Shown: positions 53,005 through 61,082, counted from the first letter of the stretch. The stretch is 64,000 nt of DNA from Natrinema sp. HArc-T2 (GCF_041821085.1 NZ_JBGUAZ010000002.1:1-64000), one strand, 5' to 3'. A program made the numbers and translations. Notes: a model not told the origin generated them from the sequence alone.

Positions 53005-54195
53005 ATGACGCGAACTGTCTGGGTAAAAGCCGACGACGCCGTCGGTGACTGGGACGACCGCCGAGCGCGAATCACCGCCGCGCTCGAGGCGGGTGCAGAC
53101 TGGGTACTGGTCGACGAGGACGACGTCGAGCGTGTCCGCGAACTCGGCGACATCAACGTCGCAGCGTTCCGGACCGACGGCGACGTGACGCTGGTCGACG
53201 ACATCGACGACGCCGAGAGCGACGACGAGCCGCCCACACAGGCCGACGCCATCATCGTCGGGAAAGAGGGCGAAGGCGACGCGACGATCGACCTGCCGGA
53301 GGACTTCTCCGGTTCGGCGGACCTCTCGACGCTGCGCCGCGACGGCGACTTCGAGCGAGGCGCGTACGTCCGTATCCTCAGCAAGGAGTACGAACACTTC
53401 GCCGAGACCGCCGCCGAGGAAGCCGACCACACGATCGTCGTCGGCGAGGACTGGACGATCATTCCCCTCGAGAACCTGATCGCCCGTATCGGCGAGGAGA
53501 CAGACCTCGTCGCGGGCGTCACCAGCGCCGAGGAAGCCAAAACGGCCTTCGAGACCCTCGAGATCGGCTCCGACGCCGTCTTGCTCGACTCGGACGATCC
53601 CGACGAGATCCGCAAGACCGTCGAGGTCCGCGACGAGGCCGCCCGCGAGAGTCTCGATCTGGAGTACGCCGAAGTGCTCGACGTCGAACGGGCCGGCAGC
53701 GCCGACCGGGTCTGTGTCGATACCGGAAACCTGCTCGAGCACGACGAGGGGATGCTCGTCGGCTCGATGAGTCGCGGGCTGGTGTTCGTCCACGCCGAAA
53801 CGGCCGAATCGCCGTACGTCGCCTCACGTCCCTTCCGAGTCAACGCAGGTGCGGTTCACGCCTACATCCGCACACCCGACGGCGGGACCAAATACCTCGC
53901 AGGACTGCAAAGCGGCGACGAGGTACAGGTCGTCGACACTGACGGCAACACCCGCGAGGCCATCGTCGGTCGCGTCAAGATCGAACAGCGACCGATGTTC
54001 CGGGTCGCTCTCGAGACCGAAAGCGGCGACCGGGTGGAAACGCTGCTCCAGAACGCCGAGACGATCAAAGTCGCCGCCAAAGAGGGGCGCAAAGCCGTGA
54101 CTGATCTCGAAGCCGGTGACGAGATCATGCTGTACTACGAGGACACGGCCCGCCACTTCGGCGAGGCCGTCGACGAGAGTATTATCGAGAAGTAA
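53005..54195 (+). CDS. aroB: 3-dehydroquinate synthase II
   Basis: A 396-aa archaeal DHQ synthase, which turns the ADH synthase product into 3-dehydroquinate. It begins MTRTVWVKADDAVGDWDDRR; conserved parts include VRILSKEYEHFAE, GEDWTIIPLENLIARI, MLVGSMSRGLVFVHAE, and SRPFRVNAGAVHAYI. An acidic linker near residues 70-80 is a halophilic addition. It is separated from the ADH synthase gene by about 5 kb of unrelated genes. Confidence 0.93.
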   Translation: MTRTVWVKADDAVGDWDDRRARITAALEAGADWVLVDEDDVERVRELGDINVAAFRTDGDVTLVDDIDDAESDDEPPTQADAIIVGKEGEGDATIDLPEDFSGSADLSTLRRDGDFERGAYVRILSKEYEHFAETAAEEADHTIVVGEDWTIIPLENLIARIGEETDLVAGVTSAEEAKTAFETLEIGSDAVLLDSDDPDEIRKTVEVRDEAARESLDLEYAEVLDVERAGSADRVCVDTGNLLEHDEGMLVGSMSRGLVFVHAETAESPYVASRPFRVNAGAVHAYIRTPDGGTKYLAGLQSGDEVQVVDTDGNTREAIVGRVKIEQRPMFRVALETESGDRVETLLQNAETIKVAAKEGRKAVTDLEAGDEIMLYYEDTARHFGEAVDESIIEK

Positions 54196-54759: not shown

Positions 54760-55179
54760 CTATGACTCGTTGCACGCGTTGACGGTCGTTTCGATCGTCG
54801 TCGATCCCGTCGTGGCCCTGATTTCGATCGGCACGGAAGCCGTAGCGTTACACGATGCACCACTCACATCGATCGAGCCGGTCTCGTCAGCTCCGACAGC
54901 GTCGTCGGGCGGGTCAACCGTCACGTTCGATGCCTGGTCGTTGGCTCCTGAGTCGGCAACGGTTGCCGCCTCGACCGAGAGTGGTTCCGGAAGACGGTTC
55001 GTCACCGTCACGACCGACCCGTTCTGCGTGCTGTTGAACGCCACCGACTGCTCCGACTCGTCGTCGGCGATCGCCACCTCGACCGGTCGTTCGACCGCAA
55101 CCGAACTCACGCCGCCGCTCGAGACGAGAAGCGAGACGAGCGCGAGGCCGACCATCGCGAGCCCGAGTCGCGACGTCAT
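54760..55179 (-). CDS. Secreted or membrane-anchored small protein, paired with DUF7344 gene
   Basis: A 139-aa protein with an N-terminal signal segment (LGLAMVGLALVSLLVSSGGV) and a beta-rich acidic external domain rich in Thr, Val and Asn-x-Thr sequons (possible N-glycosylation). Two cysteines (SCNATAS and VNACNES) may pair. Its ATG overlaps the stop of the upstream DUF7344 gene (ATGA), so the two are coupled. Confidence 0.7.
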   Translation of the reverse strand: MTSRLGLAMVGLALVSLLVSSGGVSSVAVERPVEVAIADDESEQSVAFNSTQNGSVVTVTNRLPEPLSVEAATVADSGANDQASNVTVDPPDDAVGADETGSIDVSGASCNATASVPIEIRATTGSTTIETTVNACNES

Positions 55180-55754
55180 CGCGGCGGGTCACCCCGTCCG
55201 ATCCGATTGCGATGCGCGTAGCTCGTGTGCACGACCGCGGTAACGCCGAACATCGCAACGAAGATCGCCGCGAGTGCCGTGCCGCCGAGGTTGACGAACG
55301 GGAAGATCGCATACCGGGCGAGCACAGTCAGTGCCAGCCCGACGACGGTCAGCCCGAGGTAGACGTGGCTCCACGGGATGTCCTGTGCGGGGACGTACTC
55401 GAGGTACATCTGGAGTGCCGCCGCCTCGTCGGTCAGTTCGACGACGCCGCGGGACTGGTCGTACTCGATCGCGCCGGCCTCGTCGAGTTTCGGCAGGTGC
55501 GACTGCCGGAGCGCAGTGTAGACGCGCTTTCGCTTCTTCCAGGGCAGCTCGTCGGCTGGGATATCGTACTCCCAGGCTGAAATCGAGTCAACGAGCGACC
55601 GCAGGTCGACGCGTTGTTCCTCGGTCTGCTTGAGATAGTGGAGCACCCACCGCCGTCGACGGTTGCTCAGCATCGTGAATATCTCGTCACGTGTCAGTTC
55701 GTCCGTCCGCGATTCGTCTCGTTTCGAAAGCGTCGTCACCCCATCATCCCCCAC
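55176..55754 (-). CDS. DUF7344-type winged-helix membrane regulator
   Basis: A 192-aa protein. The N-terminal part reads LTRDEIFTMLSNRRRRWVLH and KRKRVYTALRQSHLPKLDEA, the haloarchaeal DUF7344 winged helix. Two membrane helices follow (about residues 128-146 and 150-172). Membrane-bound one-component regulators of this kind often sit beside the secreted proteins they may control, as here. Confidence 0.8.
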   Translation of the reverse strand: MGDDGVTTLSKRDESRTDELTRDEIFTMLSNRRRRWVLHYLKQTEEQRVDLRSLVDSISAWEYDIPADELPWKKRKRVYTALRQSHLPKLDEAGAIEYDQSRGVVELTDEAAALQMYLEYVPAQDIPWSHVYLGLTVVGLALTVLARYAIFPFVNLGGTALAAIFVAMFGVTAVVHTSYAHRNRIGRGDPPR

Positions 55755-56078: not shown

Positions 56079-57242
56079 ATGTCAGAAACGGGAGCAGGCG
56101 ATGGGACAGTGCTTCGACGAGTGGCAACGATCGGTGTCGTCGTCCTCGTCGGTCTGTTGGTGTTCGGACACGTCCTCGGTGTGCCACTCGGGCTCGGCTA
56201 CGTCGAAACCGGTAGCATGGAGCCGACGATCGACGCCGGCGACGGCTTCGTCGCCGTTCCGACCGCCGTCGCCGGTCCCGTCGAAGAAGGGGACGTCGTC
56301 GTCTACGATGCACAGGAGATCGAGGGCGGCGGGCTGACGACCCATCGAGTCGTCGAGAAAACCGATCACGGCTACGTGACGCGGGGGGATGCGAATCCGT
56401 TCACCGATCAAGACGGCGGCGAACCCCACGTCACCGACGGGCAGATCGTCGCGAAAGCCTGGCAGATACACGGCGAGGTCGTGACGATTCCCCACCTCGG
56501 GACAGCCGCGATGGCCATCCAGGGCGGACTCGAGTCGGCCCAGTGGTGGCTCGCGTCGACGCTCGGCGTCCGAGCGCTGGCCGGCAGTCAGGGACTCTCG
56601 TATCTCCTGCTCGGGTTCGGGCTGGTCGTCATCGTCCTATCGGCTGTGTTCGATGGGCGTGGAACGCCCGACCGCGAGCGCGCTCGAGCACGCACGCGTA
56701 GAGACGCGTTCGATGCTCGGCGACTCGTCGTCGGGATGGGGGCACTCGTCTTCGTGGTCGCGCTGGCGACGATGGTCGCGATGTCGGGCTCGGTCGAGAT
56801 CGGCCTCGTGAGCGCCGAGTTCGACTCCGAGCGGCCCGACGTCGTCCCCGCAGGCGACACGAAGACACACACGACCGAACTGCGAAACGGCGGCGTGTTG
56901 CCGGTCGTGAGCATCACGGAACCGGCTAGCGACGGCATCGAGATCGACGACGACCCGCGGGTGCTCACCCACGGCGAGCGCGTCAACGCGACCGTCGCGC
57001 TGACCGCACCGCCGGAGACGGGCTACTACCTGCGCTCGTACACCGAACGCCGGTACTTCGCGGTGCTGCCGCCGCCAGTAATCGCTCGATTGCACGCGAT
57101 CCATCCATGGGTGGCGATGACCAGCGTGGCGACCGTCGTCACCGGGCTGTTCGTCCTGCCGGTCGCGCTCCTCGCGGGCACCGGCACGATCAGAACCCGG
57201 TCGCGGCGGCGATCGGATTCGACTGACGGATTCTTGAAGTGA
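56079..57242 (+). CDS. Signal peptidase I, archaeal/ER type, with C-terminal membrane domain
   Basis: A 387-aa S26 peptidase. After an N-terminal membrane helix (about 14-35) the catalytic Ser is in YVETGSMEPTIDAGDG, and the catalytic His in LTTHRVVEK replaces the bacterial Lys, as in Sec11. GYVTRGDANPFTDQ holds the conserved Asp. Beyond residue 150 it has extra helices (about 168-188, 215-235) and a beta domain, much longer than a housekeeping enzyme. With DUF5305 and TasA-like genes after it, it looks like a dedicated SipW-type peptidase. Confidence 0.87.
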   Translation: MSETGAGDGTVLRRVATIGVVVLVGLLVFGHVLGVPLGLGYVETGSMEPTIDAGDGFVAVPTAVAGPVEEGDVVVYDAQEIEGGGLTTHRVVEKTDHGYVTRGDANPFTDQDGGEPHVTDGQIVAKAWQIHGEVVTIPHLGTAAMAIQGGLESAQWWLASTLGVRALAGSQGLSYLLLGFGLVVIVLSAVFDGRGTPDRERARARTRRDAFDARRLVVGMGALVFVVALATMVAMSGSVEIGLVSAEFDSERPDVVPAGDTKTHTTELRNGGVLPVVSITEPASDGIEIDDDPRVLTHGERVNATVALTAPPETGYYLRSYTERRYFAVLPPPVIARLHAIHPWVAMTSVATVVTGLFVLPVALLAGTGTIRTRSRRRSDSTDGFLK

Positions 57243-57267
57243 TAGCTATGCACAGGAGACGTTCGAC

Positions 57268-57285
57268 TCTGGGGAGGTATCGACA
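57268..57285 (+). promoter_or_regulatory. Shine-Dalgarno before the DUF5305 gene
   Basis: GGGGAGGTATCGACA ends at the GTG start at 57286. GGAGGT is a full match to the anti-Shine-Dalgarno and fixes this start. Confidence 0.65.
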
Positions 57286-58440
57286 GTGAACAGCGATCGG
57301 TTACTCGTCCGGGCGCGAGCCGCGCTCGCCGAGTGGTACACCCTCGTCGTCGTGGTGTTGCTCGCGGTGGCGCTGGTCGGCGGCTGGGGGGCGTACACGT
57401 CGCTTGCCGGCCCCGCTGAGGAGATGAATCGAGACACGACCGAGTCGTGGTCGACGACCGGCAGCTTCGACCACAGTGCGGAAGTCACGTCGGAGAACGA
57501 GGTGTATCCCGTCGGCACGGAACTCTCCGATCGGTCGGTCTACTTCACCGACGTGACGCCCGAACTCGAGGGGACGTTCACCTACCGGTACGACGCCGAC
57601 GCCGGCGACGTGACCGCCAACGTCGAACTCGAGCGGGTGATCCGCTCTGCCGACGACGAACAGGAGTACTGGGTGGTCAACGAGACGATCGCGGAGACGT
57701 CAGCCGAGGGCCTCGCACCCGGCGAGGAGGTGACGACCGACTTTGCGGTCGACGTTCCCGCGACGGTCAACGAGAGCGAACGCATCGAGGAGAGCCTCGG
57801 CGGCTCGCCGGGCTCGATCGAAACGGTCGTCGTCGCGACCGTGGCGCTGCAGGGGACGGTCGACGGCGAGTCCGTCGAGCGAACCGAGCAGTACGAGTTG
57901 GCGCTCGAGCCCGACGGCTCGACCTACACTGTCAGCGCCACTGAGAGCGACCGAGACGGGGGTCAGCAGACCGAGACCGGCAGCGAGGTCACGACTGCCT
58001 CCGCCGGCGGCCTCGGGCTGATTCTCCCGCTGGTGGTACTCCTGGGATCACTGGGCGGACTCGGTGCGATCGTCGCGGCGAGACACAGCGAGCGGCTCGC
58101 GCCCTCCGAGGTCGAACTCGAGCGCCTTCGAAGCGAGTACGAGCGCAAGGAATTCGACGAGTGGATCTCTCGCGGCTCGCTGCCCGACGAGGTTCGGGAT
58201 CGGCCGCGGATCGAGGTGTCGACGCTCGAGGACCTGGTGGACGTGGCGATCGATTGTGATCGGCGCGTGCTCGAGGACGAATCGGCTGGTGAGTACTACG
58301 TGGTTGATGGAGAATCGCTGTACGCATACGAATCGGAGGAACTCGAGAACAGCGATCTCCAAGGTGAGACGCCTTCTGACGGGGAAGCGTTCACCGTCGA
58401 ACCCGTGACTGATGGCAGCGAGATCGAGGACGAGGAGTGA
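57286..58440 (+). CDS. DUF5305 family membrane protein
   Basis: A 384-aa protein starting at GTG 57286 with a strong Shine-Dalgarno. It has an N-terminal helix (residues 17-40), a large external beta-rich domain (about 45-225), a second helix (about 243-265), and a cytoplasmic tail with acidic repeats. This is the DUF5305 pattern, found next to signal peptidase genes in haloarchaea. It may hold or assemble the secreted subunits. Function is not established. Confidence 0.78.
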   Translation: MNSDRLLVRARAALAEWYTLVVVVLLAVALVGGWGAYTSLAGPAEEMNRDTTESWSTTGSFDHSAEVTSENEVYPVGTELSDRSVYFTDVTPELEGTFTYRYDADAGDVTANVELERVIRSADDEQEYWVVNETIAETSAEGLAPGEEVTTDFAVDVPATVNESERIEESLGGSPGSIETVVVATVALQGTVDGESVERTEQYELALEPDGSTYTVSATESDRDGGQQTETGSEVTTASAGGLGLILPLVVLLGSLGGLGAIVAARHSERLAPSEVELERLRSEYERKEFDEWISRGSLPDEVRDRPRIEVSTLEDLVDVAIDCDRRVLEDESAGEYYVVDGESLYAYESEELENSDLQGETPSDGEAFTVEPVTDGSEIEDEE

Positions 58441-59082
58441 CCCCTCGATCGGCTGTGAAAGCCGGTCGCTTCGGTGGCTAGCTTTCCGCGTCACCTCGAA
58501 TGCGGTTCGTCATTGCGAAGCGTTCACGGGGTCGTGGCTCGCCGTTCTTTGGCACGTTCGTACCCCCGTTTCCAGCCTTCCGTTGGTGTTGAGCATGTTG
58601 GGCAGCAGTGCACGCATGGTCGGGGTACGGTCAGGTGAGGATAGCGCCTCGAAAGAGAGCAGACAGAACGTCGCCTCGAGTTTGTCACCCATCTGTGGGC
58701 GAGTGTGCGAAGGGTGCGCCCAGAACGGACTCGAACAGTTATTCCACCACAGACAAAGTCGGTGATTCATGCCTTGAAACGGGTCGTCGATGAGGCCAGT
58801 TCACAGCGTGCCGGTCTCGCTATCGAAAACGTCACGAGTTGATTATGATCCTGCTACCGTCGGTTAGACGGTCCCCAACATCTCTCGCTTCGAGTAAACA
58901 ATTGTTTTCCCATCTCTGCAGACGGCCCGTGTCGAGACGACTGGCGATGGCTGCGGTCACCGCTGGCGGTGTATACAAAACAGGGAGTCTCCCATCACCC
59001 TGAATCGACGCGTCGAACTCGAGGTGGTCGACGATCGGTTGGTTGACGCGAGCTCGAGAGAGACGCGACAGGTGACAGAACT
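58441..59082. other. 640-base gap inside the signal peptidase/TasA-like locus
   Basis: No intact gene. At 58762-58842 a plus-strand frame reads VIHALKRVVDEASSQRAGLA then IENVTS and stop, with a weak likeness to the C-terminal part of IS1341-type TnpB proteins (confidence low). GTATACAAAA at 58971-58980 is a TATA-like box that would leave a leader of about 80 nt before the TasA-like gene, and CAGGTGAC shortly before the ATG may be its Shine-Dalgarno. Confidence 0.45.
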
Positions 59083-59694
59083 ATGGAACGACGTAAATTC
59101 CTGATCGGAGCAGGGAGTACAGCTATCGGTGCAAGCGCGCTCGTCGGTTCAGGCGCATTCACGAGTGTAAGTGCGAATCGAAAGCTAGTGGTTGAGACTG
59201 CTGACGATGCTGACGCGTTGTTAGCGCTTGAGGCAGAAGGTACGCCGAACGCTAACGAGTATGTCGATGAGACCGGTAACGCAATATCAATCGATATCTC
59301 GACCGCAGCTGGCGACGGCGTCAATGACGACGCGAAAACCATCGTCCGGAATCTCTTCCAAGCGAGTAACGAGGGTTCACAGGCAGTGTACGTGTGGGCA
59401 GAAGGACTCCCGACTGGAGTCTCCATGTTCCATGACGACGACGGTGGAACGAACTACAAAATGACAGGTACCGGTAATAACCAGGGTGCATTCTCAGACA
59501 CAAGCAATCTTGATCCCAGTGACCCAGCCGACGTAAACGACCCAAAGAACCCAGCAGGATACGAAGCTGCACCCAAGCTTACGGTCGGAGAGACCCTACA
59601 CAACATTGGCCTCTCAGTCGATACTACAAATGGAGAGGTCAACTTCGACGATGACATCGTGATCAAAGCTGTCGCCGCGGCCGAGGTCGAGTAA
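59083..59694 (+). CDS. TasA/DUF1102-like secreted protein 1
   Basis: A 203-aa secreted protein. MERRKFLIGAGSTAIGASAL then GSGAFTSVSANRKL is a SipW-cognate type signal peptide, with GSGAF before a cleavage site. The mature domain (LVVETADDADALLALE, GSQAVYVWAEGLP, PAGYEAAPKLTVGETLHNIG) is a beta-sandwich of the TasA/camelysin or DUF1102 kind. Codon use is more AT-rich than the neighbours. It resembles the next gene product, so the two are paralogues. It may form a fibre or surface layer component. Confidence 0.75.
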   Translation: MERRKFLIGAGSTAIGASALVGSGAFTSVSANRKLVVETADDADALLALEAEGTPNANEYVDETGNAISIDISTAAGDGVNDDAKTIVRNLFQASNEGSQAVYVWAEGLPTGVSMFHDDDGGTNYKMTGTGNNQGAFSDTSNLDPSDPADVNDPKNPAGYEAAPKLTVGETLHNIGLSVDTTNGEVNFDDDIVIKAVAAAEVE

Positions 59695-59705
59695 CTGGAT
59701 TTAGC

Positions 59706-59740
59706 TGACGGGCGTAAACGTCGCGCCCGTTTGTTATAAT
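59706..59740 (+). other. Hairpin between the two TasA-like genes
   Basis: ACGGGCG (59708-59714) pairs with CGCCCGT (59724-59730), followed by TTTGTTATAA. It can act as a partial terminator or an mRNA stabiliser that sets different levels for the two products. Confidence 0.4.
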
Positions 59741-59741
59741 C

Positions 59742-60308
59742 ATGAAAAGACGACAGTTCATCGTCGGTCTAGGCGGGCTCGCGGCCAGTTCCAGTCTCGT
59801 GCTGGGATCCGATGCCTTCACGAGCGTCGGCGCCGAGCGTCGTTTAGACGTCCAGACCGTGGATGACAACGATGCGTTGTTGATACTCCAACAGCTCGGC
59901 GACGGTAAACGAAGTGTCGAGGACGATACACCCGAGAAAGTGGAGTTCAGCTTCCCCGGTCTGGAGGAACGATTAGATGACCCCCGTCTCGGACTCGGCG
60001 TCGACTCTGTGTACGAGTTTGACCGAGACGCTAACGAGTCAGGGGATCAAAATTCCACCGAAGGCCTGCTCCGCATCGAGAATCGGGGGACACAGACCGT
60101 CACGGTCTACTCCAAACACGAGACCAACTCCGAACTCGAGATCGAACTGTATGACGTGGCGGACGACGATGAAACGTCGCTCCGAGACGACCCTGCCGAA
60201 CTCGGTGTCGGTGAACACGTCGACGTCGGATTCCGAATCCGGACGTTCGGGGCCGACGCTGGTACCTTCGACGAAACGCTCACGATCATCGCAGAAAAGA
60301 CGGAGTAG
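59742..60308 (+). CDS. TasA/DUF1102-like secreted protein 2
   Basis: A 188-aa paralogue of the previous product. The signal peptide is MKRRQFIVGLGGLAASSSLV then GSDAFTSVGAERRL, and the mature part (LDVQTVDDNDALLILQQLG, GLLRIENRGTQTVTVYS, GEHVDVGFRIRTFGADAGTF) keeps the beta-domain layout. Both genes share the AFTSVxAxR boundary, which suggests the same peptidase acts on both. Role in a surface fibre is inference. Confidence 0.75.
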   Translation: MKRRQFIVGLGGLAASSSLVLGSDAFTSVGAERRLDVQTVDDNDALLILQQLGDGKRSVEDDTPEKVEFSFPGLEERLDDPRLGLGVDSVYEFDRDANESGDQNSTEGLLRIENRGTQTVTVYSKHETNSELEIELYDVADDDETSLRDDPAELGVGEHVDVGFRIRTFGADAGTFDETLTIIAEKTE

Positions 60309-60407: not shown

Positions 60408-61082
60408 TTAGGCGAGATCAGAAACGAGCCGTGACAGTGTCTCGAGGTCGTACTGTCCCGGCGCAGTCGCCTCCGCAGGATCGACAGGCGCATACCCAAT
60501 TTTCGACCCGTACACCGGAGCCACCGCACGTGTGTGACTCCCGACCTCGCCCATCGCCATCGTGGCAACAGTGTCCCCGTGCGAGGTCAGCTGCTCGGTC
60601 GCCGACAGCAACGCGAGCGTATCGGCCTTCGATTCGGCTGTCACCGCCAGCTTCGCCACGTCGGCGTACTTGCCCGCCTCGGTTAGCGTCCGCACTAGTT
60701 CTTTCCGTGGCGGTGTCCCTTCGAAGTCGTGGGCCGACGCGACGATCGACACGTCGCGCTCGCGAGCCGTCTCGAGCACCCCCTCGGCTTCCCCATCCAA
60801 AATCGACTCGAGTTCGACGTCAATCGCCTCGACGGCCTCGAACGCGGTTGCCTCGGCCAGTGCCTCGAGTCGTCCTTCATCGTTAGCCTCACCACCCTCC
60901 CATTCGGCCCGGTTCGTCGCGAGGATCGGCAACTCGCCGTCGTAGGCCTCGAGCGCAGCCAGCGGCTCGTCGGCTAAGTCCATTCGAAATTCGATCGCAT
61001 CGGCGTGCTCGCGGGCCGCAGGTTCGTCCGAGAGGTCGGCTGTCGACGCTGCGAGCACGAAGGAATCGAAGGTCAGTCCCAT
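60408..61082 (-). CDS. aroD: Type I 3-dehydroquinate dehydratase
   Basis: A 224-aa class I DHQ dehydratase, third step of the shikimate route. EFRMDLADEPLAAL with the conserved Glu, VSIVASAHDFEGTPP with the catalytic His, ADVAKLAVTAESKAD with the Schiff-base Lys, and GEVGSHTRAVAP and KIGYAPVDPAEATAPGQ near the end show the family. Length is normal. It sits alone beside TFB, some 6 kb from the DHQ synthase gene. Confidence 0.93.
   Translation of the reverse strand: MGLTFDSFVLAASTADLSDEPAAREHADAIEFRMDLADEPLAALEAYDGELPILATNRAEWEGGEANDEGRLEALAEATAFEAVEAIDVELESILDGEAEGVLETARERDVSIVASAHDFEGTPPRKELVRTLTEAGKYADVAKLAVTAESKADTLALLSATEQLTSHGDTVATMAMGEVGSHTRAVAPVYGSKIGYAPVDPAEATAPGQYDLETLSRLVSDLA

Follow-up and report, generated by a model that had tools for sequence, protein, structure and literature searches.

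Haloarchaea are known to form Tat-exported filaments termed tafi, with TafA as their core component (Galeva et al. 2025, iScience 28:111793, as cited in PMC12687288), and donor-strand assembly has been described for the Sulfolobus thread and for bundling pili (PMC9715654). Here we analyze a gene cluster within a 64,000-nucleotide stretch of DNA from Natrinema sp. HArc-T2, the whole of which we call the window. This locus very probably makes a Tat-fimbria, that is, a tafi-type donor-strand pilus, of which the mature pilin appears to behave as an exchangeable cassette.

Gene content and conserved neighborhood

The features of the locus are as follows.

54760 to 55179, minus strand: small secreted protein (139 aa) with weak similarity to TafC and a signal peptide that lacks twin arginine (RR) (NF052521, 5.5e-4, below cut-off)
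55176 to 55754, minus strand: divergent DUF7344 winged-helix protein with a membrane tail, a probable regulator (PF24035, 1.6e-29)
56079 to 57242, plus strand: ER-type (Ser/His) S26 signal peptidase, 387 aa (TIGR02228, 5.5e-15, above cut-off)
57286 to 58440, plus strand: DUF5305 membrane protein, candidate assembly platform (PF17231, 6.4e-58)
59083 to 59694, plus strand: TafA/TafE-like protein of 203 aa with an RR signal peptide, putatively the major pilin (NF052522, 8.1e-19)
59083 to 59160, plus strand: signal-peptide coding stretch of the resident lineage, its right edge the inferred recombination joint (DNA identity comparison)
59742 to 60308, plus strand: TafE-like protein of 188 aa with an RR signal peptide, either a second pilin or an adapter (NF052522, 9.9e-13)

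Rechecking the open reading frames confirmed the positions and common direction that a preliminary description had assigned to the peptidase, the DUF5305 gene and the two genes for secreted proteins, and its naming of an ER-type signal peptidase and a DUF5305 membrane protein was right on the model scores given above. The two secreted proteins are indeed related (BLASTP 1e-15), the signal peptide being the strongest part of the match. The unit also reaches left to 54760 on the other strand, taking in the divergent DUF7344 gene and the small secreted protein, which holds the same position in relatives of the same genus. As this protein lacks RR and adjoins RR-type pilins, the products of a single locus may include substrates of both Sec and Tat. 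A gap of 642 bases lies between DUF5305 and the pilins; it bears on co-transcription and counts against our best explanation. Two genes that flank the fibre locus, at 53005-54195 (plus strand) and 60408-61082 (minus strand), resemble, on inspection, those for a 3-dehydroquinate dehydratase of type II or its neighbor in the pathway, namely a type II 3-dehydroquinate synthase in the first case and a 3-dehydroquinate dehydratase in the second. Four relatives share the right flank, which indicates that the chromosomal site is fixed; from 60436 onwards the flank is 88% identical in the same-genus loci L128 and L129.

Ser46, His89 and Asp104 of the peptidase are invariant in an alignment of 40 relatives, in which no Lys is invariant, and the enzyme is best classed as an ER-type S26 peptidase with a predicted Ser/His catalytic pair and without a catalytic Lys. 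Hydropathy analysis gives four hydrophobic segments (9-42, 167-195, 211-245 and 344-371), which frame a C-terminal outside domain of about 100 residues. A separate, housekeeping-like S26 peptidase on contig C3 scores higher, and the enzyme encoded at 56079 is probably a dedicated pre-pilin peptidase. The same genome holds two more S26-like genes about 900 bases apart (G000:C2:429163-430227; L139 and L140), both weak to TIGR02228.

Scanning 84,980 genomes with the peptidase returned 71 loci, the first 67 of which were used for neighborhood counts. All 67 have DUF5305 no more than 6 kb from the peptidase, 63 have DUF7344 no more than 8 kb away, and 59 encode an RR-type pilin in the locus. The window's own genome has only two DUF5305 copies, each beside such a peptidase and both in fibre loci. 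An AlphaFold2 model of DUF5305 (pLDDT 84.9) has two transmembrane helices, an Ig-like outside sandwich (about 56-216, 160 residues) and a small cytosolic domain. A fold search with this model gave generic Ig-like or arrestin-like sandwiches only (Z up to 8.8) and no useful match, and we found no mention of DUF5305 in the literature searched. The constancy of its neighborhood, together with this topology, suggests that DUF5305 acts as the assembly platform.

The second fibre locus of this genome, on contig C4 (L008, 4474-10586), encodes DUF7344, a TafE-like pilin, CARDB and a longer TafC-like protein. Its pilin begins MNRKK and its TafC-like protein MKVIKN, both without RR, and the adjoining peptidase is 48% identical; the substrates of this paralogous system are possibly exported by Sec rather than by Tat, judging by these N-termini.

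Pilin signals, predicted fold and the choice of system

The pilins begin MERRKFL (59083) and MKRRQFI (59742), twin-arginine starts typical of a Tat signal, and of 128 related pilins, 124 carry RR. TIGR04088, the SipW-cognate signal, matched neither pilin at E values up to 1. The TafE model scores 68 bits for the first pilin and 48 for the second, against a cut-off of 155; the TafA model detects them at 4.9e-8 and 7.8e-7 respectively, with 33 bits against a cut-off of 190. The TafC model gives the 54760 protein 19 bits against a cut-off of 410. The first pilin is nonetheless similar to the sequence of the tafi pilin in structure 9p0a (1.6e-8), as is the second when searched as a 28-member profile (6.6e-33), and the orthologue of the second also adjoins that of the first in Halorussus (L018). 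The DUF1102-like mature domains that had been proposed were not borne out, as the second pilin falls below the cut-off (E 0.071) and the first gives no match. The proposed TasA likeness likewise failed at the sequence level: the first pilin does not match TasA even with a 60-member profile, no TasA entry appeared in the profile search of PDB sequences, and no window protein matches a TasA model. Similarity to AbpA or the Saci_0406 thread was likewise undetectable in the profile search.

The resolved chain of 9p0a runs from residue 28 to 215, and the sequence alignment identifies residue 28 as the Phe in GTGAF. By homology to this chain start, cleavage of the window pilins is predicted after residue 25 (A25|F26).

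A model of the 59083 protein, the one pilin covered by our fold comparison, was built from an alignment of 60 relatives and has a mean pLDDT of 74.8, with a beta-sandwich core mostly above 84. Its top match is 9p0a, "Structure of Natrinema sp. J7-2 Tafi pilus" (Foldseek E 4.8e-4), with which VIA-align superposes 140 residues at 2.8 A (Z 10.1). Next in VIA-align come the Pyrobaculum bundling pilus AbpA (7ueg) at Z 8.1 and the Sulfolobus thread (7pnb) at Z 7.5, while the remaining sandwiches score Z 6.6 and below, so that all of the top three in the Foldseek and VIA-align comparisons are filaments. The resemblance to AbpA that the preliminary description had anticipated is therefore present, but the best match is tafi; TasA chains do not occur among the matches listed by either program, an absence with which a TasA fold would still be compatible. 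Global TM-scores are modest (0.49 for 9p0a), which is a point against our best explanation. Residues 1-41 of the monomer model have no strand partner, as would be the case for a donor segment.

These results bear on whether the proteins polymerize at all. They might be secreted or membrane-associated DUF1102-type proteins, such as soluble adhesins or envelope proteins, that have a dedicated peptidase and stay unpolymerized, as the presence of only one pilin in some same-genus loci would allow. Since three polymerizing subunits head the fold ranking and a close relative in gene set forms a solved pilus, we consider this very unlikely. The earlier suggestion of a plausible donor-strand fibre in a haloarchaeon is instead well supported, both by the fold and by the genes shared with loci proven to make fibres, although the kind of fibre is already published as tafi, with a solved Natrinema structure. 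An anonymous gene cluster thereby becomes a testable fibre locus.

At L035 (Natrinema altunense), the pilin shares about 91% identity with that of 9p0a and is followed by CARDB, S26 and DUF5305. In L092, TafA, TafC and TafE all exceed their NCBIfam cut-offs, and L092-L094, in which TafA is above cut-off, carry the same S26, DUF5305 and DUF7344 families as the window, plus CARDB. The L035 pilin scores only 77 bits with TafE, also under the 155-bit cut-off, which implies that the TafA and TafE equivalog cut-offs delimit a subgroup narrower than the structural class; the window pilins are therefore not excluded from that class by their scores. They are not strict Taf equivalogs, but their sequences and the predicted fold of the first point to a tafi-type assignment.

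The analysis also took in the surroundings of DUF5305 in four genomes that belong to the same phylum but not to the haloarchaea. At L145, L147 and L148, DUF5305 directly follows an S26 peptidase, and neighboring secreted proteins match TIGR04088 and PF12389 (camelysin), with weak TasA matches. No partner accompanies the haloarchaeal peptidase more constantly than DUF5305, which elsewhere in the phylum occurs with SipW-cognate proteins. This suggests that, outside the haloarchaea, DUF5305 and its peptidase serve TasA-like substrates of the Sec pathway, and that the pair was kept when haloarchaea moved their substrates to Tat.

Could the locus nevertheless be a true SipW/TasA matrix-fibre system, with Sec-exported TasA orthologues, a SipW orthologue and a TapA-like accessory protein? 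The peptidase has a weak match to the SipW model (2.5e-7, far below the model's own cut-off), the signal peptide ends in a TasA-like GSGAF pattern, which we take to resemble the end of the Bacillus TasA signal peptide, the pair accompanies camelysin-like proteins in the three loci just described, and the predicted fold is near AbpA. Against this stand the RR signals of the pilins, the failure of the window proteins to match either TIGR04088 or TasA, and the closest structure being tafi, and we regard such a system as very unlikely. The label "SipW/TasA-like" in the preliminary description is accordingly replaced: the nearest kind is tafi, the signals are of the Tat type rather than the SipW-cognate Sec type, and sequence similarity to TasA is undetectable.

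Discordant histories of pilin and machinery

The window and three loci of the same genus at the one chromosomal site (L127, L128 and L129) have machinery that is 69-97% identical and mature first pilins that are 30-36% identical. L128 and L129, sister strains differing in little else at the fibre site, are the clearest pair, with DUF7344 at 97%, S26 at 97%, DUF5305 at 91% and the signal peptide at 100% identity, against 32% for the mature pilin. The reverse holds between the window and Halorussus salinisoli (L018), a member of another family, whose mature pilins are 72% and 77% identical to those of the window while the machinery reaches 41, 51 and 40%; DNA identity is 70.6% over 1252 bases. 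More widely, the best pilins fall short of 40% identity in many pairs whose S26 proteins share 80-97%, and only three pairs, those among the window, L018 and L132, have S26 below 60% with pilins above 60%. DUF5305 and DUF7344 are 76-97% identical in near pairs, and the CARDB and TafC-like genes are mostly intermediate.

Phylogenetic trees agree with these comparisons. The pilin tree joins the window, L018 and L132 (98/98) and rejects the grouping of the machinery (AU p 1.06e-7), long branches occurring in it, and the peptidase tree rejects the grouping of the window, L018 and L132 (AU p 1.76e-35). A second incongruent case is the L128 pilin, which groups with that of Halomarina L013 (99/97) at 59% mature identity and 49% S26 identity. 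These data suggest that distant species have exchanged the fibre subunit, the adjoining export genes staying in place.

The position of the joint emerges from DNA identity along the 59083 gene. Over bases 1-39 and 40-78, the window is 95 and 74% identical to L127, 90 and 79% to L131, 87 and 85% to L010, and 72 and 49% to L018; over bases 79-105 its identity to L018 is 78%, against 41-63% for L127, L131 and L010. Identity reverses at codon 26, the predicted cleavage site, although the stretches are short and place the joint to roughly ten codons.

Rapid evolution of mature pilins in place, without any exchange of cassettes, would be a rival to this reading, as secreted proteins do evolve fast, the TafC-like and CARDB genes diverge somewhat too, and low GC3 is general among related pilins, so that composition gives no argument for transfer. 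It cannot, however, yield 72-77% pilin identity to Halorussus at 40-51% machinery identity, congruence is rejected by the AU tests, and identity reverses at base 78 of the 59083 gene; we therefore judge it unlikely.

Low GC content was considered as a sign of recent pilin transfer and rejected, as 116 related pilins generally have a lower GC3 than the peptidase (median difference -0.145). The median GC3 is 0.64 in these 116 pilin genes and 0.81 in the adjacent peptidase gene. Searches of the rest of the genome for silent pilin cassettes with TafE, TafA and TafC found only the C4 fibre locus. Separately, L130 (three pilins) and L134 (two pilins), of the same genus and with peptidases 97% identical, differ in pilin number and order, which suggests gain or loss within arrays.

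Taken as a tafi-type pilus with an exchangeable subunit, the locus might operate as follows. Both pilins would leave the cytoplasm by the Tat pathway, and the Ser/His peptidase would cut after GSGA or GSDA, so that the mature chain starts at Phe26. The N-terminal segment released in this way, approximately residues 26-44, would then complete the beta-sandwich of the next subunit, with the 59742 protein as a second subunit or adapter. DUF5305, through its two-helix anchor and Ig-like outside domain, may hold or chaperone subunits at the membrane together with the outside domain of the peptidase, and DUF7344 would regulate. Recombination near the cleavage codon would replace mature pilins, with the resident signal peptide and machinery staying.

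Going further, we lean slightly towards the view that tafi loci in general are a pilin-exchange system, in which the platform of peptidase and DUF5305 is fixed, its place on the chromosome does not change, and recombination at the cleavage codon brings in foreign mature pilins. Each strain would so present a different fibre surface, while export and processing would still fit the signal peptide already there; viruses or partner cells perhaps supply the selective pressure. If families exchange the part of a non-type-IV archaeal pilus that is displayed, with its machinery inherited, archaeal surface variation becomes testable. Compared with the tafi literature as cited in PMC12687288, the exchange of mature pilins behind a resident signal peptide and machinery is the new part.

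Comparison with known systems

The locus shares with the SipW/TasA/TapA system of Bacillus a Ser/His peptidase adjoining its secreted substrates and the donor-strand principle (PMC9674648), but differs in its Tat-type signals, its lack of a TasA match and its additional DUF5305 and DUF7344. AbpA of Pyrobaculum and the thread Saci_0406 are closer in predicted fold, and a signal-peptidase-I-type maturation is common to them (for the thread, PMC9715654); export of the thread subunit is ascribed to Sec (PMC9715654), in contrast to the Tat-type pilins of the window.

The greatest likeness is to tafi, as seen in 9p0a and the TafA loci, with which the window has in common the predicted fold, the RR signals, the Phe chain start and, from the accessory set, S26, DUF5305 and DUF7344 beside the pilins. 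It is unlike them in lacking CARDB, in its short TafC-like protein, in having the pilins downstream of DUF5305 and in pilins that score below the TafA and TafE cut-offs. On its genes and predicted fold, we read the locus as a probable tafi-type system, a reduced form of a known kind, without a CARDB gene and with a short TafC-like protein.
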